Shown piece by piece: positions 2,681 to 58,645 of a stretch of DNA of 64,000 bases (positions are counted from its first letter, which is position 1; every line of letters starts with the position of its first letter). Both the position numbers and the translations under genes were made by a program. This DNA comes from Rhodobacteraceae bacterium NBU2976 (lineage in GTDB: Bacteria; Pseudomonadota; Alphaproteobacteria; Rhodobacterales; Rhodobacteraceae): contig JALPRQ010000001.1 of assembly GCA_023630215.1 (NCBI GenBank), positions 558,001 to 622,000 on the forward strand, in the 5' to 3' direction. Below the pieces are notes generated by a model. It made no database searches and had not been told where the DNA came from. It was given only the letters and a program-made list of their open reading frames with translations.

Positions 2681-4218
2681 CGCCGCATGACCGAGGTGAT
2701 GTCCGACAGCGAACTGGCGCGCAGTATGATCACCGACAGACCATAGGTTGCGATGCCCGTCAGGACCAGCACCAGCAGCCAGACATACCGCCAGCCGGGT
2801 GTTGTCAGGCCCGTGCCGATCAGTTGGGATACGCCCCATATGACAAGCCCCATGATCACGCTGGCCAGAATGATCCGGCCGAGCCGCAGTTTTAGACGGG
2901 CGTCCATTGCTGCCGCGTCGCCATAGCGGCGCGCACCAAGCCACAGCATTACCAGCATCACCCATCCGGCAACCGTGGTCCCGATGGCCGCTGCCAGATA
3001 GCCAAGGACGGGCATCAGTCCGACCGCCAGCACCAGATTGATTACCATAGAGGCCAGCGCATAGTAGAACGGTGTGCGGGTATTTTCGCGTGCGAAGTAG
3101 ATGGGTGACAGAACTTTTGCCAAAACAAAGGAAGGAAGTCCAAATCCATAGATCACAACCGCCAATGCCGTTGCCTCGGCATCCGACCGTTCGAATGCGC
3201 CACGTTCGAACATGACCGAGACCAGCGGCATCGCGATGGTCATCAGCGCGGCAGCGGCGGGCAAGGATAACAGCAACGTAAATTCGGCCGCGCGGTTGAT
3301 TGACCAGCGTCCCCCTTCGGTGTCATCGGCGCGCAGACGACGCGACAGGTCAGGCAGAAGGACAACGCCAATGGCGATCCCCACCACCCCCAGCGGCAAC
3401 TGATAAAGTCGATCGGCATAGTTCAACCAGGCGACCGCCCCGTCAAATTGCGAAGCCACCTGTCGTCCGATGAGCAGATTGATTTGCACCACGCCCCCCG
3501 CCAGTGCTGCCGGGGCGGCGATCAGGGCCAGGCGCTTCAGTTCCGGAGTCATTTTTGGAACGCGTAACCGAAGCGCCATGCCGGCCTGTGCCGCCGCCCA
3601 CCAGACCAGCGCCAATTGCGCGATCCCCGCGAGCGGAACAGCAAAGGTCAAGGCCCAGCCGATGTCCCAACCCAGTTGCACCGCAAAGATCATGGCGGTG
3701 ATCAGAATCACATTTAGCAAGACAGGTGCCGCGGCTGCGGCTGCGAACCGACCCAGCGAGTTCAGCACACCGGAAAACAGCGCCGCGAGAGAGATGAACA
3801 GGATATAGGGAAAGGCGATCCGGCCGAAATCGGTCGCCATGGTAAAGCGTTCATCCCCGACATAACCGCTGGCCATGGCCAGCACCAACCAAGGCATGAA
3901 CAGCTGCGCAACCAGGGTGAAGATAATCAGCACGCCTGCCAGACCTGACAAGGCATCCTCGGCAAATCCCTTGGCGTCTGACCCGTCCTCTACACGTTTG
4001 GCGAACATGGGGACAAAGGCGGTGTTAAACGCCCCTTCGGCAAAGAAACGGCGGAACATGTTGGGAAGGGCAAAGGCGATCAGGAATGCCTCGGCCACCG
4101 GACCAGACCCCAGAAAGGCGGCGATCATGATGTCGCGCACAAACCCCAGAACCCGACTGGCCAATGTCCAGATGCCAACCGTGAAGAATCCCGAAATCAG
4201 CCGGATCTGACGGGTCAT
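2671..4218 (-). CDS. murJ: Lipid II flippase MurJ
   Basis: This 515-residue polytopic inner-membrane protein of the MviN/MurJ family moves lipid II, the peptidoglycan precursor, from the cytoplasmic to the periplasmic face. About 14 hydrophobic segments are visible. The N-terminal stretch with LASRVLGFVRD, the AFLIAFALPNMFRRFFAEGAF-type region and a later PLGVVGIAIGVVLLP stretch are family hallmarks. The start codon overlaps the glnD stop (ATGA), so the two genes are translationally coupled. The length is normal for alphaproteobacteria. Confidence 0.97.
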   Translation of the reverse strand: MTRQIRLISGFFTVGIWTLASRVLGFVRDIMIAAFLGSGPVAEAFLIAFALPNMFRRFFAEGAFNTAFVPMFAKRVEDGSDAKGFAEDALSGLAGVLIIFTLVAQLFMPWLVLAMASGYVGDERFTMATDFGRIAFPYILFISLAALFSGVLNSLGRFAAAAAAPVLLNVILITAMIFAVQLGWDIGWALTFAVPLAGIAQLALVWWAAAQAGMALRLRVPKMTPELKRLALIAAPAALAGGVVQINLLIGRQVASQFDGAVAWLNYADRLYQLPLGVVGIAIGVVLLPDLSRRLRADDTEGGRWSINRAAEFTLLLSLPAAAALMTIAMPLVSVMFERGAFERSDAEATALAVVIYGFGLPSFVLAKVLSPIYFARENTRTPFYYALASMVINLVLAVGLMPVLGYLAAAIGTTVAGWVMLVMLWLGARRYGDAAAMDARLKLRLGRIILASVIMGLVIWGVSQLIGTGLTTPGWRYVWLLVLVLTGIATYGLSVIILRASSLSDITSVMRRQR

Positions 4219-6995
4219 TGGGCGGCAACCTCCTGACCTTTTTCGATTGCCTCATGCAGACGTTTTTCGATGCTTTCCTGCCGGGATTTTGAATGGATCT
4301 TATGCCCGAACAGGTCTTTGACATAAAACGCATCGACGGCTTGTTCGCCATAGGTGGCGATAATTGCAGAAGAGATCGAGATGTTGCTGTCGGTCAGGGT
4401 TCGTGCCAGATCAAACAACAGACCCGGGCGGTCACGCGTGTCGACCTCGATGATCGTGAAGATATCCGAGCCTTCATTGTCAAAGGTGATCGCGGTGGGC
4501 ACGATGAATTCGCGCTCGCGCTTCTTGAATTTGTCCTTGGTCTTGAGCGCATCTCGGGCAATCACTTCGCCTTTCAGCGTGCGAGAGATCATGCGTTGCA
4601 ATTGTTTCAGACGGGATTCGTCATAGGGTTTCCCCTCGATATCCTGAATCCAGAATACCGCCGTCGCCAACCCGTCCGAAGACGTATAGGTCCGCGCGTC
4701 CACCACGTTCGCCCCGGCCAAGGCCAGCGCCCCGGCGAAGCGGGCGAAAATACCGGGGTGGTCGGGCATGACGAAACAGGCGCGGGTTGCGTCGCGGTTC
4801 TTGTCCGGTTCGACGTGGCTGACGGGTTCATCCGGCTTGGCATTGCGTACCAGTTCGGCGAAAATCTGATGGGTTTCGGTGTCCAGCCCCAGCCAGTACG
4901 GGCGGTAATGACGATCTTGCTCGGTCTTGATGTCAGACAGTTTCCAACCCTTCAACACCTTTGCCAGTTCGTCTTTTGCGCCCTGTTCGCGGTTCATGCC
5001 CGCAAAGGCCTGTTCGCCATCGCGCAGCAGCAGGCGGGTCTGGGAATAAAGATCGCGCAGCAGCACGGCCTTCCAATTGTTCCAAACACCCGGACCAACC
5101 CCGCGAATGTCGCAAACGGTCAACACGGTCAACAGCTTCAACCGTGTGCGGCGCTGCACGGCTTCGGCAAAATCCTTCACGGTGCGCGGATCAGACAGGT
5201 CACGTTTTTGCGCAACGTCTGACATCAGCAGGTGATTTCGCACCAACCAAATGACGGTTTCGGTTTCGTCTTCGTCCAGCCCCAAACGTGGGGCGACTTT
5301 GGCGGCAATTTCCGCGCCCGCTTCGGAATGGTCCTGGGGCAGACCCTTGCCGATATCGTGCATCAAGAGGGCAACATATAATATTCGGCGGTTTACCCCT
5401 TTTTCGAGAATCGAGGACGCCACCGGCAGGCTTTCTTTTAATTCGCCATGTTCAATTTGCGCGAGGGTCGAAATGCATTGGATTGTATGTTCATCAACCG
5501 TATAGGAATGATACATGTTGAACTGCATCATTGCGACGATGCGGCCGAATTCGGGCATAAAGGCGCCCAACACACCGATTTCATTCATCCGCCGCAAGGC
5601 GCGTTCGGGGTTACCGCGGTTCAGCAACAAATCCAAAAAAATCTTGTTCGCTTCGGGATCGTTGCGGACATTTTTGTCCAACAGCTTCAGATTTCGCGCC
5701 ACCAGCCGCATCGCGTCAGGATGAATCAGGATATCGGATTTCAGGGCCTCATCAAACAGCCTGAGTATGTTAAGCGGATCTTTGAGAAAGCTTTTCGGAT
5801 CCTTGATATTCAACCGCCCGTTATCGAGTGTATAACCGTCAGCCGTTGGATCTGCGCGGAATGTGATTGCGTTCAGGATTGATCGCCCGAAAGAGGGTCG
5901 GTTCTTGACATGCTCGGCCTCTAATGTGGCGAGGAATATCCGCGTCAGTTCGCCAACATGGGTGGCGTGATGGAAATATTCTTGCATGAAATGCTCGACT
6001 GCGCGGCGTCCACTGCCATCCTTGAAACCAAGCGCACGGGCGACTTCGACCTGCATGTCGAACGTCAGTTGTTCGGTTGCGCGGCCCGCGCATAAATGCA
6101 AGTGGCAGCGCGCGGTCCAAAGGAATTTTTCTGCATCTGCGAAGATTTTGAATTCTTCAGCCGTATAGACCCCACGTTCAATCAGGGCTTCGGGGCTGTC
6201 GACATGGTAAAGATATTTTGCGATCCAGAACAGGGTCTGGAGGTCACGCAATCCACCTTTGCCTTCCTTGATATTGGGTTCTACCACATAGCGCGCGCCA
6301 CCGTTTTTCCGGTGTCGCTCGTCGCGCTCTTCCAGCTTGGCTTCGACGAATTCCGGGCCAGTATTGGCAAACAGTTTTGACCAGAGCTGTTTGTCAAGCT
6401 GGTTGGCCAGTTTCTGATCCCCGTAGAGATAACGATGTTCTAGCAATGCGGTGCGGATGGTGATGTCCTCGCGTCCAAGGGACAGACAGTCTTCGATAGT
6501 ACGCACAGCGTGGCCGACCTTCAGTCGCAAGTCCCACAGGATGTAAAGAGCGCTTTCGATAAAGGCTTCTACCGCCTTGTTCGCCCGTTTCGGCGTCAGG
6601 AAGAGTAAGTCCACGTCCGAAAATGGCGCCATTTCGGCGCGTCCGTAACCACCAACCGCAAGAACACTGATATCATCGAGTGAGCGGGCTTTCGGGTGTA
6701 TCCAGACGCGCGCGATTTCAAGAACCTGTTCTACGATAATGTCGGTAATTTGCGTATAGGACCGGATGGCGCTGGGCGCTTGATAAGGATCGGACTTTAG
6801 CGCATCTGCAAGCCTGTCGCGACTGTCGACATAGGCATCGCGCAGGATCGGCACAACGGCGGCACGGATGGCGATTTCGTCCGAAAGCCCCTTGAGCGCG
6901 CCCTTGATTGATCGCCGCAAGTCGGCGATGTCCAGAATCGCTGTGGGGGAGTCATGTGACCCCCCCACAGCCTGTTTCGTCATTTCAGCACTCAT
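4215..6995 (-). CDS. glnD: Bifunctional [protein-PII] uridylyltransferase/uridylyl-removing enzyme
   Basis: This 926-residue cytoplasmic nitrogen sensor uridylylates PII proteins when glutamine is low and removes UMP when glutamine is high. The domains in order are: a nucleotidyltransferase with GGYGR (115-119) and the metal-binding DVD (127-129); a uridylyltransferase-linked helical domain; an HD domain with MHDIGKG and a following DHSEAG that removes UMP; and two C-terminal ACT domains that sense glutamine. All active-site motifs look intact. It is the upstream gene of a pair with murJ (4-base overlap) and lies 3 bases downstream of the LpoA-like gene on the same strand, so the three may be one transcript. 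Confidence 0.97.
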   Translation of the reverse strand: MSAEMTKQAVGGSHDSPTAILDIADLRRSIKGALKGLSDEIAIRAAVVPILRDAYVDSRDRLADALKSDPYQAPSAIRSYTQITDIIVEQVLEIARVWIHPKARSLDDISVLAVGGYGRAEMAPFSDVDLLFLTPKRANKAVEAFIESALYILWDLRLKVGHAVRTIEDCLSLGREDITIRTALLEHRYLYGDQKLANQLDKQLWSKLFANTGPEFVEAKLEERDERHRKNGGARYVVEPNIKEGKGGLRDLQTLFWIAKYLYHVDSPEALIERGVYTAEEFKIFADAEKFLWTARCHLHLCAGRATEQLTFDMQVEVARALGFKDGSGRRAVEHFMQEYFHHATHVGELTRIFLATLEAEHVKNRPSFGRSILNAITFRADPTADGYTLDNGRLNIKDPKSFLKDPLNILRLFDEALKSDILIHPDAMRLVARNLKLLDKNVRNDPEANKIFLDLLLNRGNPERALRRMNEIGVLGAFMPEFGRIVAMMQFNMYHSYTVDEHTIQCISTLAQIEHGELKESLPVASSILEKGVNRRILYVALLMHDIGKGLPQDHSEAGAEIAAKVAPRLGLDEDETETVIWLVRNHLLMSDVAQKRDLSDPRTVKDFAEAVQRRTRLKLLTVLTVCDIRGVGPGVWNNWKAVLLRDLYSQTRLLLRDGEQAFAGMNREQGAKDELAKVLKGWKLSDIKTEQDRHYRPYWLGLDTETHQIFAELVRNAKPDEPVSHVEPDKNRDATRACFVMPDHPGIFARFAGALALAGANVVDARTYTSSDGLATAVFWIQDIEGKPYDESRLKQLQRMISRTLKGEVIARDALKTKDKFKKREREFIVPTAITFDNEGSDIFTIIEVDTRDRPGLLFDLARTLTDSNISISSAIIATYGEQAVDAFYVKDLFGHKIHSKSRQESIEKRLHEAIEKGQEVAAQ

Positions 6996-6998
6996 ACA

Positions 6999-8186
6999 TC
7001 AGAATCCGACACCACCAAAGTTTCTAGGGGCGGGTTCTATGACAATTGCGGTGCCATCCTCAACCTCGAGAATGGCAAGACCACGCTGATTAAGCCCATT
7101 CGGGGTAAATCGGAATATTCCGTTCACGCCAACAAATCCGGCCGGGTTGGTGATACGCGCGGCTGAAAATGTGTCTGTGGCCCCTTCGGCACGTGCGGCT
7201 TTGATCATTGCACCAACCGCGGCAACAGCGTCATAGGCAAGCGGTGCGAGGTTATGCGGTTCCGTGCCAAACTGTGCGATGTAACGCCCGGTGAACTGCG
7301 CGCCAAGCGACGGGTCCGGCACAGCAAACAACGCGCCTTGTGCAGACGGTTGTTGTAACAGTTCCGTCGAGGCATCCCAACGCGTCAGTCCCATGAATTG
7401 GGTATTGCGTGGGGTGATTCCCTCGCTGCCAAGAGCGGCCATAATGAATGGCAGACCACGGGTCGGCGTGTCGGTGAACAGGATGGTTTGAACGGCATTG
7501 GCCTTCATTGCGGCGGCCACTGTCGGCGCGGCCTCGCTGAGCCCTTGCATATTCAACGGATAGGAAGCGGAACCCGCCAGATTTGCCCCGACAGCGCGCG
7601 CGGCAACCTGGGCGGCGGTTAGTGCGGATTCCCCTTCGATCCCGTCCTGATAGACCACGCCAACGTTAGCTTTGCCTTGCGCGACCGAATAGCCATATAG
7701 GCGCGTTGCCACATCTTCGAATGTGGTCCCAAGAATAAATATATTCCCCCCCGCAATCGCCGAGTTGTTCGAGAAGCTGATCACCTGAATATTGTTCTGT
7801 GCAGCCACTGCGGCGACCGCAGGTGTGACCGTGCTGTAAAGCGGGCCAAGAATGATCTGTGCCCCTTCACTGATGGCGCGGGTGGCCTCGGCAGCAGCAA
7901 TATTGGGGTCAGCGGCCGTGTTATAGATACGCAGGTCAATCATCGACCCGCCTAGGTCGGATTGGGCCATGCGCGCGGCGTTCACAAGAGCATTTGCCAA
8001 ATCCTCGTTCGCCGCTTCACCCGAGCCACGGGGAACCATCAGGGCAACGGTAATCGGCTGGTTGGGATCAACAGCGGCGGCGGGACCGGTGATGGGCATC
8101 CCGTCACAGGCCGCGAGCGTCAACGCCGCCAAGCCCAGCAGGAATGCCCGGGCGGGACGCAGAATTGCGGTAAGATTTTTTAACAT
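6999..8186 (-). CDS. LpoA-like penicillin-binding-protein activator lipoprotein
   Basis: This 395-residue exported lipoprotein has an N-terminal hydrophobic segment ending in a lipobox (LTLAAC), so it should be lipidated at that Cys. The rest is a type I periplasmic-binding fold as in Leu/Ile/Val-binding proteins, with GSGEAANEDLANALVNAARMA followed by ILGPLYSTVTPAV. LpoA-family proteins stimulate penicillin-binding proteins during peptidoglycan synthesis. In gammaproteobacteria lpoA sits beside rsmI and yraN; here it is divergent from rsmI-yraN, which supports the assignment. The ATG at 8186 is preferred over one four codons upstream because it leads straight into the signal peptide. An amino-acid-binding role is possible but less likely. 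Confidence 0.8.
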   Translation of the reverse strand: MLKNLTAILRPARAFLLGLAALTLAACDGMPITGPAAAVDPNQPITVALMVPRGSGEAANEDLANALVNAARMAQSDLGGSMIDLRIYNTAADPNIAAAEATRAISEGAQIILGPLYSTVTPAVAAVAAQNNIQVISFSNNSAIAGGNIFILGTTFEDVATRLYGYSVAQGKANVGVVYQDGIEGESALTAAQVAARAVGANLAGSASYPLNMQGLSEAAPTVAAAMKANAVQTILFTDTPTRGLPFIMAALGSEGITPRNTQFMGLTRWDASTELLQQPSAQGALFAVPDPSLGAQFTGRYIAQFGTEPHNLAPLAYDAVAAVGAMIKAARAEGATDTFSAARITNPAGFVGVNGIFRFTPNGLNQRGLAILEVEDGTAIVIEPAPRNFGGVGF

Positions 8187-8289
8187 ATTTCCTCGCAATA
8201 TCAGGAGTGTATCAGTAGACTCGTTTCGGGGCAGATTACGGATTGAACCCTGCCAAGTAAACGAAAGCTTTTAGGAAGGGGGATCGGGT

Positions 8290-9141
8290 GTGACTGAATC
8301 GGCTGCACCGCTGGCGGCGGGACTATATCTTGTGTCCACTCCGATCGGAACCGCAGCAGATATTACCTTGCGGGGGTTGGATATTCTGTCCCGGGCGGAT
8401 GTTCTGGCCGCCGAGGATACGCGCAATTCTCGGAAATTGCTGGATATTCATGGTATTAAGCTGGCTGGCAGGCCGTTTCTCGCCTATCACGACCATTCGT
8501 CAGAAGGGGATCGCGCACGATTGGTCCGTGCCGTGGCCGAAGGGAAGGCTGTCGCCTACATGTCGGATGCGGGAACACCCCTGATTGCGGACCCCGGCTA
8601 TAAGCTGGCGGCCGCGATGATTGCGGATGGTTTGCCCATCACAGCCGCGCCAGGTGCATCAGCTTTGCTGGCTGCACTTGCCGTGGCAGGCTTGCCCACG
8701 GATCGGTTCATGTTCGCGGGATTCCTGCCGGTCAAGGCGCAGGCGCGACGCGCTTTCATCGAGGGCTTGGCAACGATTCATGCCACGCTGGTTTTTTATG
8801 AATCCCCACGCAGGTTGGCAGATACGCTGGCACTGATGGCGGACGTGCTGGGCGATCGTCCCGCGGCGGTTTGCCGTGAGCTGACCAAAAAATTCGAGGA
8901 GGTGAGGCGCGGCTCATTGTCCGATCTGGCCAACGCCTACCCCGAGACGCCCAAAGGCGAAATTGTGATTGTTGTCGGTCCGCCGGGGGAAGAACCCGCG
9001 AACGAAGGCGATCTGGATTCCGCGCTTGACGCCGCGCTTGCCGAGATGTCGGTCAAGGATGCGGCAGCGTTTGTGTCGCAACAATTGGGATTGAAACGCA
9101 AACAGGTTTATGCCCGGGCGCTGGAGCTGGCAGGGAAATGA
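8290..9141 (+). CDS. rsmI: 16S rRNA (cytidine(1402)-2'-O)-methyltransferase
   Basis: This 283-residue SAM-dependent enzyme methylates the 2'-OH of C1402 in 16S rRNA. It belongs to the tetrapyrrole-methylase fold family. The diagnostic segments are LYLVSTPIGTAADITLR at the N-terminus, AAEDTRNSRKLL, and MSDAGTPLIADPGYKL followed by GASALLAAL. It starts with GTG at 8290 after a purine-rich AGGAAGGGGG ribosome-binding site. Its stop overlaps the yraN start by 4 bases (ATGA). Confidence 0.95.
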   Translation: MTESAAPLAAGLYLVSTPIGTAADITLRGLDILSRADVLAAEDTRNSRKLLDIHGIKLAGRPFLAYHDHSSEGDRARLVRAVAEGKAVAYMSDAGTPLIADPGYKLAAAMIADGLPITAAPGASALLAALAVAGLPTDRFMFAGFLPVKAQARRAFIEGLATIHATLVFYESPRRLADTLALMADVLGDRPAAVCRELTKKFEEVRRGSLSDLANAYPETPKGEIVIVVGPPGEEPANEGDLDSALDAALAEMSVKDAAAFVSQQLGLKRKQVYARALELAGK

Positions 9142-47983: not shown

Positions 47984-48124
47984 CAAGTATCCATTCTTTT
48001 GGTTGAACTTGTTTGCGAATGATAAAATGTCAAGGCGATGCCGCGGAATCATCGGGTTTTACCCTAGTGTTTTATGGGCGAAGGGCCTAATAACCACGCA
48101 ATAACCATTACCCCGGGGACACAC

Positions 48125-49456
48125 ATGGAACTTACCTTCAAACGATCAGATTTCGGCGCAGATTTCACTTTCGGCGTTGCGACCTCAAGTTATCAGATCG
48201 AGGGGCATCGCCACGGCGGCGCAGGGTCTACGCACTGGGACACTTTCGCCGCAACGCCGGGCAATGTCGTCAGGGGAGAGAACGGGGATATAGCCTGTGA
48301 TCATTATCACCGATGGGAAGAAGATCTGGATCTACTCCAGGCGGGCGGATTCGACGCTTATCGATTCTCGACAAGTTGGGCCCGTGTGATGCCCGAAGGG
48401 ATCGGTCAGGTGAATGCCGAGGGCCTCGATTTTTATGACAAGCTGGTGGATGGGATGCTGGCACGCGGGATTGATCCCTATTTGACACTGTATCATTGGG
48501 AAATGCCGTCTGAACTGGCAGCCAAAGGCGGATGGCAAAACCGCGATGTTGCAAAGTGGTTTGCCGACTATACCGAGGTCCTGTTGAAGCGGCTGGGCGA
48601 TCGCGTCAAAGCTGTTGCCACAATCAATGAGCCATGGTGCGTCGCTTGGCTAAGCCATTTCATGGGGCTTCACGCGCCGGGATTGCGCGATATTAAAGCT
48701 ACCGCACATGCGATGCACAACGTTTTGCTGGCGCATGGCACGGCAGTTCAGGCGATGCGGGCAATGGGTCAGAAAAATCTGGGACTCGTCACCAATTTTG
48801 AATGGGCAATGCCTGGCGACCAGTCAGACCGCGCCAAAGACCTTACCGACCTCTATGTCAGCATTTACAATCGATGGTTTGTGCAGGCCGCCTTTACCGG
48901 GACCTATCCGGAAAACGTTCTGGAAGGGTTGGGTCCGCACATGCCCAAAGATTGGGAATCAGATATGGAAACGATCGCTTCACCGGTCGATTTTCTGGGG
49001 GTCAATTATTATACTTGCCGCCGCGTCGTTGAAGCGCCTGACTCTCTCTGGCCGCATATCGCCGACAAACCCGGGGACCTGAAAAAGACCGCGATGGATT
49101 GGGAAATCCTACCCGATGGTCTGTTCAACATCCTGACGTTCCTGCGCAACGAATACACAGGCGACACCCCGATTTATATCACCGAGAACGGTTTGGCATC
49201 ATATGATCTGGTCGAAAATGGCGCGGTATTTGACCCGGACCGCGTGGAATATCTTGACCAGCATATTCACGCGGTAAAGCGTGCAATTGATGCAGGTGTT
49301 CCGGTCAAAGGGTATTTTGCTTGGTCGTTGCTTGACAATTTCGAATGGGCGCTGGGCTATGATAAACGTTTTGGTTTGGTCCATGTCGATTTTAATACAT
49401 TGAAAAGAACGCCAAAATATTCATACGATCTGTTAAAGAACGCACTGACTCGATGA
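48125..49456 (+). CDS. Beta-glucosidase, GH1
   Basis: This 443-residue cytoplasmic glycoside hydrolase family 1 enzyme cleaves beta-glucosides or related beta-glycosides. Diagnostic segments are FGVATSSYQIEG at the N-terminus, the acid/base Glu169 in TINEPW and the nucleophile Glu354 in YITENG. A late WSLLDNFEWALGY segment is the usual aglycone-site region. No signal peptide is present. The ATG at 48125 is preferred over an upstream in-frame ATG because the family N-terminus starts there. It is followed after 30 bases by the carrier-thioesterase gene, so it may belong to the same transcript. Confidence 0.95.
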   Translation: MELTFKRSDFGADFTFGVATSSYQIEGHRHGGAGSTHWDTFAATPGNVVRGENGDIACDHYHRWEEDLDLLQAGGFDAYRFSTSWARVMPEGIGQVNAEGLDFYDKLVDGMLARGIDPYLTLYHWEMPSELAAKGGWQNRDVAKWFADYTEVLLKRLGDRVKAVATINEPWCVAWLSHFMGLHAPGLRDIKATAHAMHNVLLAHGTAVQAMRAMGQKNLGLVTNFEWAMPGDQSDRAKDLTDLYVSIYNRWFVQAAFTGTYPENVLEGLGPHMPKDWESDMETIASPVDFLGVNYYTCRRVVEAPDSLWPHIADKPGDLKKTAMDWEILPDGLFNILTFLRNEYTGDTPIYITENGLASYDLVENGAVFDPDRVEYLDQHIHAVKRAIDAGVPVKGYFAWSLLDNFEWALGYDKRFGLVHVDFNTLKRTPKYSYDLLKNALTR

Positions 49457-49486: not shown

Positions 49487-50482
49487 ATGGAACAGTTTGC
49501 GGCTGACGTGAAGAGACTTTGTTCGCTGTTCGAACAAGAACTGAAGCAACCCGTTTCCGAGGGTGACGATTTTTTTGACCTGGGCGGGGACTCGCTGATG
49601 GCGCAAGCCCTGGTTACCGCGATCAATGACGAATTCGGTTCGATCTTCAATGTCTCGAACATCATGGACTTTCCGACGCCCGCCGATTTTGCACGTGCCC
49701 TGTCACAGGGCAACACCCCCGGCGACCTGATCAATCCATTGTTCGGGTCAACGGGAGAAGATCCATTGTTGTTCGTCCATGGGGCGCTTGGGGGCAATTT
49801 TCAGTTGCGCTTGGTGGGTGATGACATGCGCTCGCGCTGGAAGATCGCCGGTGTCCGGGCGCGCGGCTATGTTCGTGGAGAAACGTTTCACGCCACGCTG
49901 GACGAGATGTTGAATGACTATATGGATCAGGCCGAGGAACATTTCGGCTCGTTGCCTAAATTTATTGCCGGGAACTGCGCAGGGGGTATGATCGCCCTCG
50001 AACTCGCCAGCCGTATCTATCATAAGACTGGTGAACAGATGACGCTGTTTATTATCGATCCACCTGCGACATTTCTAAAGTATCATCAGGAAAAACGTGG
50101 TGTGCATCGCGGATGGTATTACCGCTATATCCGCGTCTATCATCGCTTACTTTACAAGGTCCTGCGTGCCCTTCGGCTGGAAAACACCAAAGAAGGGCGC
50201 CGAACCTACGGTCGTTTGGTTTTCTATCATATTGTGGAATTCGTTAAGGATATCTATCCCAAGCCGTTTCCGTGCAATATGCTTGTGTTCGTCGGCAGCA
50301 GCCTGATGGACGTGTCCGTGCCGGGTATTCAGACGTGGGCGGACGATCAGGTGAACGTGCAGTTCCTACCGCTTCCCGGGCGTCACAATGCCATACATCG
50401 CGAAAACAAGGATGTCATAGATACGGAAATCCTGCGATTCGTTGAATCTCTGGACGTGCCGACTGCGATGGCGAGCAGGTAA
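49487..50482 (+). CDS. Carrier protein-thioesterase didomain protein with Cys nucleophile
   Basis: This 331-residue protein has two parts. Residues 1-75 are a phosphopantetheine carrier domain with the attachment Ser36 in DLGGDSL. Residues 90-325 are an alpha/beta-hydrolase of the NRPS thioesterase type, with the oxyanion segment FVHGALGGNF, a nucleophile elbow G-N-C-A-G-G with Cys164 where most such enzymes have Ser, a candidate Asp191 (LFIIDPP) and a candidate His300 or His304 (GRHNAIH). It would hold an acyl group as a thioester and release, cyclise or couple it. It has a GGAG ribosome-binding site and directly abuts the adenylating enzyme gene. No condensation or ketosynthase domain is nearby. 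Confidence 0.87.
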   Translation: MEQFAADVKRLCSLFEQELKQPVSEGDDFFDLGGDSLMAQALVTAINDEFGSIFNVSNIMDFPTPADFARALSQGNTPGDLINPLFGSTGEDPLLFVHGALGGNFQLRLVGDDMRSRWKIAGVRARGYVRGETFHATLDEMLNDYMDQAEEHFGSLPKFIAGNCAGGMIALELASRIYHKTGEQMTLFIIDPPATFLKYHQEKRGVHRGWYYRYIRVYHRLLYKVLRALRLENTKEGRRTYGRLVFYHIVEFVKDIYPKPFPCNMLVFVGSSLMDVSVPGIQTWADDQVNVQFLPLPGRHNAIHRENKDVIDTEILRFVESLDVPTAMASR

Positions 50483-51919
50483 ATGTTTGCCGAAATCCTG
50501 ATCGAACGGATCCGAGCCGCGAATAACAACCTTCTGATTGCGGACAGGACACGGCGGTTTAGCGGCAAAAAAATTGACATTCTTACAGCTGATACCGCAC
50601 TGAGACTACTGGAAGATGCGGTTAAACCCGGTGATCGCGTTGGTGTTGCCTATCGTGACCCTGTTCAAGGGCTAATCGTTTTTATTGCGGCATTGCGGGT
50701 TGGGGCTGTCCCAGTATTCATCGACTTCCGCATGAAGCCAGATCAATGCATTGGTCTTATTGAACTGATGGGATTGATACGTCTCTATGGTGATCGCCAA
50801 TTGCCTGGGCGGTCGGAAAGCGTGGTTCTGCAGGTAAACTGGGCGGCAGACCCGTCAGAAACGGATATACTTATCCCACAACCTCAGCACTCGAACGGGT
50901 TCATCGCGTTGTCGTCGGGAACAACTGGTATACCCAAGGCCTATGTTCTGAATGACACCGTAATATCAAACCGGATGCTGGATACGATATCCTATCAACC
51001 GCGTGAGCACAAAGGATTGCTGGTGCTGCTGTCCTTGTCCTTTGCCGGAATGCACAACCTGCTTTTCCCCGCTTTATTGAATCAGGTGCCGGTTCACTTC
51101 ATGCCATTGATGTTTTCGACCAACGAATTGATCAGCATGTTGAAACGAAAAGATATCACTGGTGTGACGATGCCCCCGCCAATTCTGATGGATCTTCTGG
51201 ATGCCATCGGACCGGTCGAGACACCTGCATTTGAACATTTGCGTTTGCTGAAGTGCGCAGGTGCGCCGGTCACATCGGAGGTGGCGGTTAAGGCATATAC
51301 ATATCTGTCGAACAGCTTTGAAAAAGGTTATGGGTCCACCCTGTCGAATACCAATGCGCGTTTGTTGGGCGATGATATCATCAGGCATCCCGATGCGATC
51401 GGTCGCCTTTGCCGCAATATCCGGCTGGAAGTGCTTGACCCCCTGACACTTGAACCGCTTCCAGTGGGCGGGACCGGAATATTGGCGTTTCACTCCAATA
51501 TGAATGCCAGTGACATTTTTTCTTCCACGCCCACTGACGAACGTATCATCGGCGATGCTGCCATACCTGGCGATATTGGTTACATGGGGCATGATGGGCT
51601 CCTATACGTTACGGGACGTATGTCGGACGTTATCGTACGTGGAGGGATCGCCATTTTGCCAAAGGTGATCGAAGATCATGTGCGGAGCCAACCCGGAATT
51701 CGTGACATCGCGATTGTCGGCGTTGATGACCTTCGACTGGGACAGGAGATTGTCGCCTTTGTCGTCGCAGAGGGATTGAGTGAAGCAGAAGTCGAAAAGG
51801 TGCTGATAAGCACGGTCGATCAGGACAAGCGACCACGCAGAATCGTGTTGGTCAATACCCTTCCGGTGACGGTGAACGGCAAATTGGATCGGCTAAAACT
51901 GCGAACAATGGTGCCGTAA
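50483..51919 (+). CDS. Stand-alone adenylating enzyme (AMP-dependent synthetase/ligase)
   Basis: This 478-residue enzyme of the ANL superfamily activates a carboxylic acid as acyl-AMP and transfers it to a thiol. The P-loop is SSGTTGIPK (144-152), the A7/A8 region is GDIGYMGHDGLLYVTGRMSDVIVRG (363-387), and the catalytic Lys467 lies in VNGKLDR, so the small C-terminal domain is complete. The A4 region reads SLSFAGMHN and lacks the Asp that contacts the alpha-amino group in amino-acid-activating domains. This points to a non-amino-acid substrate. It starts immediately after the stop of the carrier-thioesterase gene, its likely thiol partner. A CoA ligase role is the alternative. Confidence 0.87.
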   Translation: MFAEILIERIRAANNNLLIADRTRRFSGKKIDILTADTALRLLEDAVKPGDRVGVAYRDPVQGLIVFIAALRVGAVPVFIDFRMKPDQCIGLIELMGLIRLYGDRQLPGRSESVVLQVNWAADPSETDILIPQPQHSNGFIALSSGTTGIPKAYVLNDTVISNRMLDTISYQPREHKGLLVLLSLSFAGMHNLLFPALLNQVPVHFMPLMFSTNELISMLKRKDITGVTMPPPILMDLLDAIGPVETPAFEHLRLLKCAGAPVTSEVAVKAYTYLSNSFEKGYGSTLSNTNARLLGDDIIRHPDAIGRLCRNIRLEVLDPLTLEPLPVGGTGILAFHSNMNASDIFSSTPTDERIIGDAAIPGDIGYMGHDGLLYVTGRMSDVIVRGGIAILPKVIEDHVRSQPGIRDIAIVGVDDLRLGQEIVAFVVAEGLSEAEVEKVLISTVDQDKRPRRIVLVNTLPVTVNGKLDRLKLRTMVP

Positions 51920-57005: not shown

Positions 57006-57701
57006 ATGCTGACGGTCGAAAATATCAATCTGCATTACGGCGCGTCACAGGCGTTGAAATCCGTGTCCCTGACCGCCGAGGCGGGCAAAGTGACAACCGT
57101 TCTGGGGCGCAACGGGGTGGGGAAAACCTCGCTGACACGGGCCATCGTGGGACGCAATGACATTTCCGCCGGGACGATCACGTTCGAGGACGACGACATC
57201 GCCAAAACCTCCGCCCCGATACGTGCGCTGAAGGGGATTGCATCAGTGCCGCAGGGGCGCGAGATTTTTCCCCTGCTAACAGTGAAGGAAAATCTGGAAA
57301 CCGGATTTGCCTGCCTGCCTCGGGGTAAGAAACACATCCCGGACGAAGTGTTCGAACTGTTCCCGGTGCTGAAGGAAATGCTCTCGCGGCGCGGTGGCGA
57401 CCTGTCCGGTGGTCAGCAGCAGCAATTGGCAATTGGTCGCGCGATGGTGACGCAGCCGAAATTGCTGGTGCTTGACGAACCGACCGAAGGCATCCAACCA
57501 TCCATCATCAAGGACATTGGCCGCGCCATCGAGTTCCTGCGCGACAAGGGCAATATGGCAATAATCCTGGTGGAGCAATATTTTGAATTCGCCCGCGATC
57601 TGGCGGACGAATTCCTGGTTATGGATCGGGGCGAGGTTGTACTGTCAGGTTCCGCCGCCGACATGGACGAAGCGCATGTCCAAAGCCTGCTGACGGTTTA
57701 G
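57006..57701 (+). CDS. urtE: Urea ABC transporter ATP-binding protein UrtE
   Basis: This 231-residue LivF-type ATPase is the partner of UrtD. Walker A is GRNGVGKTS, the signature LSGGQQQQLAIGRAM and Walker B LLVLDEPTEGIQPS, with the family segment SVPQGREIFPLLTVKENL. The ATG at 57006 is preferred over an in-frame start inside urtD because the protein N-terminus (MLTVENINLHYG) is the usual one. It ends the urt operon, and its stop codon overlaps the stop of the convergent dioxygenase gene. Confidence 0.95.
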   Translation: MLTVENINLHYGASQALKSVSLTAEAGKVTTVLGRNGVGKTSLTRAIVGRNDISAGTITFEDDDIAKTSAPIRALKGIASVPQGREIFPLLTVKENLETGFACLPRGKKHIPDEVFELFPVLKEMLSRRGGDLSGGQQQQLAIGRAMVTQPKLLVLDEPTEGIQPSIIKDIGRAIEFLRDKGNMAIILVEQYFEFARDLADEFLVMDRGEVVLSGSAADMDEAHVQSLLTV

Positions 57702-58645
57702 CCCTTCCAGCTTGCGGCGCCCAGCAGCTTGCGACCCAGATCGTTCAGCTGTGCCTCGGGGTACTTGTTCTTCTCCCAGCGGCGGGGATCACCGGCAAAC
57801 GCCTTGCCAGCAGGGGCGATTTTTTCGCGGAACAAACGCAGGCGGGTTTCACGCAGATCGTCGTTATCCTCCTGCGCCGGGAACATCGAGATATACTGCG
57901 CCATGCGCACATCGTCCGAGCGGTTTACCTTGATCCCGTGTGCCATCAGCGAGTTAAAGATCAGCATATCCCCTGATTTCAACTGCGGCTGGATCAACTC
58001 GTAATCGCCAATGTCAGGATGGAAACCGTCGCGGTCGGCGGGTTGGGTTTTCTTCCACTCGTCAAAATCGTGGAACAGGTCCGGCACGCACTGGAAGCCG
58101 CCCATTTCCGGCGTTGTATCGACCAGCGTGACAATCGCCTGCACGTTATGGATCAGCGGATCGCGTGTCGTGTCGATGTCCCAATGCAGGAACCCATCGA
58201 ATTTCGACTTGTCCTTGTTGGGGGGGTTGAGGTTCGCGCGGTCAATCGTGACCCAAAGGTCCTCGCGATCCCAGATATCGACGAAGACGTCATAGATTTT
58301 CTGTGACTGGCGGTTATCCCAAAGGGTCTGGTGATGATACGCCTCCACCATGCCGGACCCGTTCAGATCCTTCAGGCCATATTCCAGCAACTGCGGTTTG
58401 TACCAGGTGGACGGGTCGTTCGCGTCCATCTCCTGAAACTCCCACAGAAATTCTTTCAGCGCCTCAACTTGCGCTTGCGGGATCACCTGCGGCACGATGA
58501 TGTAGCCGTAGCTCTGCCATGTCGCGAACTGTTCCTCTGTCAGCACGCGGAGTGGCAGTTTCTTCTTGATCGTCCGTAAATCGATATTGACCCCGGTCGC
58601 ATCCGCATTTCCCGCATTGTCCGCAATGTCCTGTAAGGCTTCCAT
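57698..58645 (-). CDS. Phytanoyl-CoA dioxygenase (PhyH) family protein
   Basis: This 315-residue member of the PhyH family of Fe(II)/2-oxoglutarate oxygenases has the iron-binding HxD in FLHWDID and the distal His in LMAHGIKVNRS, and Arg in the following segment may bind 2-oxoglutarate. The reaction is likely the hydroxylation of a small molecule; family substrates range from fatty acyl-CoA to ectoine and phosphonates. It is divergent from an AraC regulator with 122 bases between starts, which suggests inducible expression. The substrate is not known. Confidence 0.88.
   Translation of the reverse strand: MEALQDIADNAGNADATGVNIDLRTIKKKLPLRVLTEEQFATWQSYGYIIVPQVIPQAQVEALKEFLWEFQEMDANDPSTWYKPQLLEYGLKDLNGSGMVEAYHHQTLWDNRQSQKIYDVFVDIWDREDLWVTIDRANLNPPNKDKSKFDGFLHWDIDTTRDPLIHNVQAIVTLVDTTPEMGGFQCVPDLFHDFDEWKKTQPADRDGFHPDIGDYELIQPQLKSGDMLIFNSLMAHGIKVNRSDDVRMAQYISMFPAQEDNDDLRETRLRLFREKIAPAGKAFAGDPRRWEKNKYPEAQLNDLGRKLLGAASWKG

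Follow-up and report, generated by a model that had tools for sequence, protein, structure and literature searches.

A split carrier-thioesterase and ligase gene pair with related pairs mostly beside TAXI-TRAP transporter genes and ligases that lack the A5 glutamate

Introduction

Synthetases of the adenylation-thiolation-thioesterase (A-T-TE) type, such as the fungal and bacterial atromentin and ralfuranone synthetases, carry a ligase, a carrier and a thioesterase (TE) on a single chain, have no condensation or reductase domain, and use keto acids. Systems of the EntE, DhbE and DltA/DltC type consist of a stand-alone acid ligase plus a carrier. Here we analyse a gene pair that shares features with both, located in a window of 64,000 nucleotides (the whole stretch of DNA that was analysed; contig JALPRQ010000001.1, positions 558,001 to 622,000) from Rhodobacteraceae bacterium NBU2976. 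One gene encodes a carrier fused to a TE and the other a ligase. The pair has the same three kinds of domain as the A-T-TE synthetases and likewise no condensation or reductase domain, but it is divided over two genes, its ligase resembles CoA ligases and is devoid of the A5 glutamate, and its relatives are linked to TAXI-TRAP transporters; nor is a keto-acid substrate established for it. As in the EntE, DhbE and DltA/DltC systems, the separate ligase would be expected to load a carrier from another gene. Unlike in those systems, the carrier has a TE of its own attached, a search downstream showed no acceptor module, and the A5 glutamate is missing.

Two enzyme families provide further comparisons. 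SulM is a TE of a nonribosomal peptide synthetase (NRPS) with a cysteine nucleophile. The window TE has the GxCxG motif of the cysteine TEs ObiF, SulM and AB3403 and the same arrangement of a peptidyl carrier protein and a TE (PCP-TE), although it stands outside any NRPS module. In ObiF, the cysteine TE acquires its acyl group through transthioesterification, and closure of the beta-lactone follows (PMC6668435). The ligase has the fold and most of the catalytic motifs of class I ANL acyl- and aryl-CoA ligases (MatB, FadD13, 4-chlorobenzoyl-CoA ligase (CBL)). These enzymes carry a glutamate at Clark index 490, whereas the ligases of all seven aligned pairs have another residue (Leu287 in the window). 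Clark et al. 2018 report the glutamate at index 490 as Mg2+-binding and 100% conserved in 374 class I enzymes (PMC6122825), and an aryl-CoA ligase review also assigns Mg2+ binding to this residue (PMC8388817).

The stronger finding to emerge from the comparisons below is a small group of transporter-linked loci whose ligases break a rule of their superfamily. An earlier reading of this DNA from its letters alone (the sequence-only reading) had noticed neither the TAXI-TRAP link of the relatives, nor the cysteine nucleophile, nor the lost glutamate.

Results and Discussion

The gene pair

The carrier-TE protein (P0001) and the ligase (P0002) are encoded by abutting genes (Table 1). The TAA stop codon of the first occupies 50480-50482 and the ATG of the second stands directly at 50483, with no gap. 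P0001 contains a PP-binding domain (PF00550, E 4.7e-15, residues 10-72) with the GGDS phosphopantetheine motif at Ser36. This domain precedes an NRPS type I TE (PF00975, E 1.5e-9, residues 93-202; only positions 2-113 of the 226 in the profile are matched), in which Cys164, Asp191 and His300 line up in the alignment. P0002 has both domains of a class I ANL ligase, AMP-binding (PF00501, E 1e-29) and AMP-binding_C (PF13193, E 1e-10), and it matches this class in structure as well. Its AlphaFold model (35 sequences, mean pLDDT 88.4) has MatB, FadD13, amide bond synthetases and aryl-CoA ligases as its nearest folds, although such fold matches cannot fix the substrate. Since the ligase and the carrier-TE protein are separate open reading frames (ORFs), the pair is not a single-chain A-T-TE enzyme. 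The layout proposed by the sequence-only reading thus held in its coordinates, its carrier serine and its Pfam domains. The proposed absence of condensation, ketosynthase and reductase domains also held: none was found in the 10 of 15 neighbouring proteins that were scanned with Pfam (genes called at 41.7-59.6 kb).

Table 1. Genes of the pair and codons of particular interest, in window coordinates.
Feature	Position	Strand	Basis
Carrier-thioesterase didomain protein, 331 aa	49487..50482	+	ORF, Pfam, PDB sequence match, AlphaFold model
AMP-binding ligase, stand-alone, 478 aa	50483..51919	+	ORF, Pfam, AlphaFold, fold matches
Ser36 codon (GGDS), expected phosphopantetheine site	49592..49594	+	Translation position; invariant in 7 aligned pair proteins
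Cys164 codon, predicted TE nucleophile (GNCAG instead of GxSxG)	49976..49978	+	Alignment of 93 PCP-TE rows
Leu287 codon, at the usual Mg2+-binding A5 glutamate position	51341..51343	+	Alignment of 52 ligases

Ligases without the A5 glutamate

In the 52-ligase alignment, counted after removal of an identical row (L036), the A5 glutamate is absent from all seven pair ligases (0/7) and present in 44/45 of the others. The lone exception outside the pairs is the ligase of genome G098, which has a glycine at this position and adjoins the pair clade in the tree. A wider, cruder count found the glutamate in 156/157 other rows. For this count, repeats and rows of less than 300 aa were left out, which reduced 206 rows to 165; L053 of G201 and L001 of the window, both duplicating pair proteins, were removed as well. 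At the G098 locus (L042, 8116-10595 and 17854-18861), a short-chain dehydrogenase gene follows the ligase gene and no PCP-TE is near; an NMT1_3/TAXI-type binding protein is encoded about 8 kb from the ligase.

The P-loop lysine is also gone in five of the seven pair ligases, whereas 43/45 of the other ligases keep it; the window ligase has retained it. The P-loop Ser/Thr, the A7 aspartate, the A8 arginine and the A10 lysine (D364, R379 and K467 in the window ligase for the last three) are kept in 7/7, which argues against general decay. The A10 lysine serves the adenylation half-reaction. Its conservation suggests that acyl-AMP is still made and that the metal is held in another way. In A domains for alpha-amino acids, the residue after the A4 phenylalanine is an aspartate that holds the alpha-amino group. 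As this residue is an alanine in the window ligase and never an aspartate in the seven pair ligases, the substrate is likely an acid without an alpha-amino group.

Related pairs and their transporter genes

Related pairs were found in at least five other genomes, at least six pairs in all: G236 (L063), G201 (L064), G482 (L065), a metagenome-assembled genome of the Rhizobiaceae group (L071) and Maritalea mobilis (L072), which has two pairs in one locus. Because related pairs occur in five other genomes, the association of the two genes appears to be more than chance. Reading around PCP-TE frames of stand-alone size revealed a nearby ligase gene in four cases (L063, L064, L065 and the unrelated L066, see below). 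When a three-row ligase alignment was searched against the species-genome collection, L071 and L072 gave E-values of 2e-56 and 2e-54 among the matches listed, and the third match 1e-31; in both loci the PCP-TE genes adjoin the ligase. No long NRPS-like gene stands beside any of the six pair loci, with 14-17 kb read around each relative, or near the window pair in the window gene list. The idea of a small recurring system of split carrier-TE and ligase genes, separate from any larger assembly line, is therefore upheld.

Genes for a TAXI solute-binding protein (PF16868) and DctM lie within the same few kb as the pair in four of the five loci found (L064, L065, L071 and L072). Gene orders and orientations vary among the four, and in L065 the transporter genes stand between the ligase and PCP-TE genes. 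The TAXI proteins of the pair loci are mutually 30-43% identical. The pair loci were located via PCP-TE or ligase, never via the transporter. As a control, the same TAXI and DctM queries were run on 78 other ligase loci listed by the scan that had yielded L071 and L072 (L073-L150, up to 7 kb per side), and a match at E <= 1e-15 occurred in one, Nesterenkonia L073. There (3441-8479), the TAXI-TRAP transporter is divergent from a ligase that keeps its A5 glutamate, no PCP-TE match is present, and neighbours resemble enoyl-CoA hydratase and 3-hydroxyacyl-CoA dehydrogenase (names assigned by eye). The same TAXI/DctM queries found nothing in the 17 kb read around L063, where the ligase of the pair (pair at 5773-8715) has an in-frame stop. 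Transposase-like genes (identified by eye) surround L063, and a sulfotransferase gene is near.

The transporter link points to a small organic acid. According to a review (PMC5812351), which terms TAXI-TRAP transporters a neglected group, one TAXI protein is described as glutamate/glutamine-binding and deletion of another altered growth on several organic acids. The pair loci would give these transporters a testable context. Conversely, as a minimal carrier-plus-TE system with a candidate importer, the locus would allow its substrate to be sought from the binding-protein side.

The thioesterase

The TE nucleophile is a cysteine in 6/7 pair proteins and in 7/86 of the other PCP-TE rows of the 93-row alignment, although the 86, which count among them the unrelated split pair L066 and 47 closely grouped rows, are not independent. 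Asp191, His300 and Ser36 are invariant in the seven aligned pair proteins. Cys164, Asp191 and His300 are predicted to form the TE triad. The carrier-TE protein matches the PCP-TE parts of AB3403, whose cysteine aligns with Cys164, and EntF among PDB sequences. Its PCP-TE model is weak (5 sequences, mean pLDDT 66.1) and was left out of arguments on geometry; its best matches among solved structures are AB3403 (4zxh), followed by the EntF PCP-TE (3tej). Asp191 aligns with the usual TE aspartate, whereas the ObiF aspartate is on strand 6 (PMC6668435). Five of the pair TEs form a clade, with support of 99 and 100 in two trees.

Ligase phylogeny and fused counterparts

In trees computed by a quick method, the window ligase falls inside a six-member set of pair ligases (SH-aLRT 99). 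When L063, which has a long branch, was left out, it remained in a five-member set (SH-aLRT 99). It thus probably belongs to the pair-ligase group. The ligases of L065 and G098 are loosely placed.

Single-chain proteins with a CoA-ligase-like first domain followed by a carrier and a TE occur at L068 (5316-7865, G695) and L218 (6357-8984, G742) and are possible fused counterparts of the pair. The ligase part of L068 falls in the sister group of the pair ligases. That of L218 matches pair ligases and is absent from the trees. The partnership of ligase and PCP-TE is supported by the L068 fusion and, less directly, by L218.

Possible function

From the gene pair, its domains and recurrence, the transporter linkage in relatives and the residue patterns, we infer the partnership, reaction steps, substrate class and product as follows. 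The pair may be a split, condensation-free system for acid activation, carrier loading and release with a remodelled metal site, a reading that we favour tentatively and hold with a little less than even confidence. The ligase would convert a small carboxylic acid without an alpha-amino group to acyl-AMP, in a metal site that dispenses with the usual A5 glutamate, and would then load the acyl group onto the partner carrier, at the pantetheine attached to Ser36. From there the group would move to Cys164 of the fused TE, which would act together with Asp191 and His300, and would be released through hydrolysis, through self-condensation, as a lactone or by transfer to a small acceptor. In the relatives, the TAXI-TRAP transporter encoded at the locus would most likely import the acid; for the window copy it would have to come by another route.

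Several observations weigh against this reading. The first is the lost glutamate itself. Clark et al. report that the E306Q change in CBL costs about 50-fold, and E361A in FadD all detectable activity (PMC6122825). As the residue is missing in all seven pair ligases, adenylation by the window ligase is now uncertain; of the earlier claim that the pair supplies adenylation, the AMP-binding domains stand and the activity is in doubt. Support for all seven pair ligases as one group is weak, at 79, or 83 without L063 and 53 without the window ligase. The TEs of the window and of L065 fall outside the five-TE clade, the window TE in both trees. It has a very long branch, and its partner there is L048 of G196, a TE that is part of a longer NRPS-like frame (support 94 and 98). 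Its placement is uncertain, however, since a topology that groups it with the five pair TEs withstands the AU test (p-AU 0.694) and, after a search, reached a slightly better score. The fused proteins L068 and L218 have a serine TE and retain the A5 glutamate, so that they are no exact counterparts of the pair. The window locus has no TAXI-TRAP transporter by TAXI and DctM queries, and the three PF16868 proteins of the window genome are far less similar to the pair TAXI proteins than these are among themselves. Finally, the sole phosphopantetheinyl transferase match in the window genome is the housekeeping AcpS beside pdxJ, and each of the five other pair genomes has one AcpS-sized match. In four of these five, a second candidate transferase noted at first look failed to pass; G742, which holds L218, has a further match in a 235-aa frame. 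Either AcpS may serve the window carrier, or a divergent, Sfp-type transferase may have escaped detection.

A more far-reaching version of the favoured acid-activation reading is doubtful, though it deserves mention. According to it, the pair ligases would be a previously unrecognised adenylate-forming branch that has given up the glutamate and depends on a dedicated carrier as its only partner, one joined to a TE that is mostly of the cysteine kind, and usually with its own TAXI-TRAP importer. Such a system would take up a small acid and turn it into a carrier-derived product by an altered activation chemistry. If the ligases are active, an ANL enzyme can dispense with a glutamate that is 100% conserved in the 374-member survey (PMC6122825), and this would bear directly on how ANL enzymes handle ATP and metal.

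The immediate relatives of the pair ligases raise another explanation. Their sister group (joint support 100) consists of six rows: plasmid ligases of Variovorax, Comamonas, Rhizobium and Roseomonas, the ligase of G088, and the ligase part of L068. The four plasmid genes among these six sit in clusters that look catabolic and contain amidohydrolase genes, partly together with genes for acyl-CoA dehydrogenase, isochorismatase-family proteins, and tricarboxylate-type or ABC uptake systems. The pair may thus be a nutrient-use module in which the carrier replaces CoA: an imported acid would be loaded, altered in trans by a general enzyme, and hydrolysed off by the TE. The uptake transporter in 4/5 of the related loci found and the neighbours of the distant TAXI-TRAP-linked Nesterenkonia ligase are in line with this. 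However, a substrate held on a PCP is typical of specialised metabolism. Furthermore, no modifying enzyme common to the pair loci was seen in the gene lists or in the Pfam domains of selected neighbours, and within the 17 kb shown none of the four plasmid clusters contains a gene annotated as a carrier or NRPS, although L068, in the same sister group, is fused to a carrier-TE. We regard this catabolic explanation as rather unlikely.

It is improbable that the ligases are no longer ATP-dependent and instead charge the carrier with acyl groups taken from a ready-made donor, or bind or sense as partners of the PCP-TE. The losses of the A5 glutamate and the P-loop lysine, against their near-universal retention in other ligases, would be expected under this explanation. 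However, the A7, A8, A10 and P-loop Ser/Thr residues are intact in all seven, the window copy retains the P-loop lysine, and the constraint on the A10 lysine fits continued adenylation.

The analogy with the atromentin and ralfuranone synthetases drawn by the sequence-only reading turned out to be a formal one, resting on domain content. It would have the ligase load two (aryl) keto acids and the TE join them, as a single-chain A-T-TE enzyme split in two. The same three functions are present without a condensation or reductase domain, and the Maritalea locus with its two pairs would also fit. On the other hand, the closest matches of the ligase are acyl- and aryl-CoA ligases, most of its sister group comes from clusters that look catabolic, and the ten scanned neighbours include no recognisable gene for making keto acids. 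We therefore consider a coupling of this type improbable.

That the window copy is a decaying relic of a TAXI-TRAP-linked system with no present function is very improbable. In favour of decay, both window proteins have long branches, the transporter is missing, the relative L063 has a stop in its ligase, the 12 same-genus genomes searched (five of them less than 93% complete) gave no match and no Sfp-type transferase was detected in the window genome. Against it, the two ORFs are undamaged and directly adjoin each other, and Ser36, the predicted triad and the residues of A3, A7, A8 and A10 have been retained.

Neighbourhood of the window pair

A family 1 glycosidase gene (48074-49456) on the same strand stops 30 bases upstream of the carrier-TE gene and, given this strand and spacing, may share a transcript with the pair. 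No glycosidase gene was noticed beside the pairs in the gene lists of the relatives. ABC transporter genes start 275 bases downstream of the pair and include a Peripla_BP_5 binding protein and a branched-chain-type permease. A PhyH-family gene (57698-58645), encoded on the other strand, stands at the end of this transporter operon and showed no connection with the pair.

Homologue searches

Searches of the 12 genomes from the same genus (68-100% complete) gave nothing for P0001 at E <= 0.001. In 101 relatives, 394 family genomes and 385 class genomes, of which the latter two sets were listed at E <= 1e-10 only, its other matches of more than 100 residues were at most 35% identical; carrier-only matches in the 101 relatives reached 43%. 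Most of the matches listed in relatives are pieces of long NRPS-like frames and not pairs. L067, L215 and L216 were rejected as stand-alone carrier-TE genes, being pieces of larger NRPS genes cut by contig ends, and the ligase matches in G088, G075, G098 and G061 are not pairs, as no PCP-TE lies beside them. Plasmid searches with P0001 returned 215 records, all below 60% identity, and the 20 shown were mostly annotated as NRPS or polyketide synthase. The Maritalea carrier-TE query returned 42 records, those shown being mostly NRPS. P0002 had no plasmid match at E 1e-30, and the G201 ligase query gave 173 records, of which five were opened, none with a carrier-TE annotation. Among viral contigs there was one NRPS-like match for profile A1 and none for A2. 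A description of the locus or of ligases without this glutamate was not found among the open-licence PubMed Central papers listed.

L066 (6487-9302, G721) is a second, unrelated split pair, with the PCP-TE gene before the ligase gene. It was rejected as a clade member, as its ligase keeps the A5 glutamate and sits elsewhere in the tree. It lies downstream of genes for homoserine O-succinyltransferase and a Cys/Met-metabolism PLP enzyme. Profile A3, with which the family genomes were searched, was built from seven pair proteins, and the high scores of these proteins in that search follow by construction. PCP-TE matches at E <= 1e-30 occur in 159/394 family genomes (e.g., L160-L185). Those listed are mostly in frames of about 2,150 aa, and the aligned ones have a serine TE. 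An NRPS-like protein of about 2,150 aa thus appears to be widespread in the family of the window bacterium.

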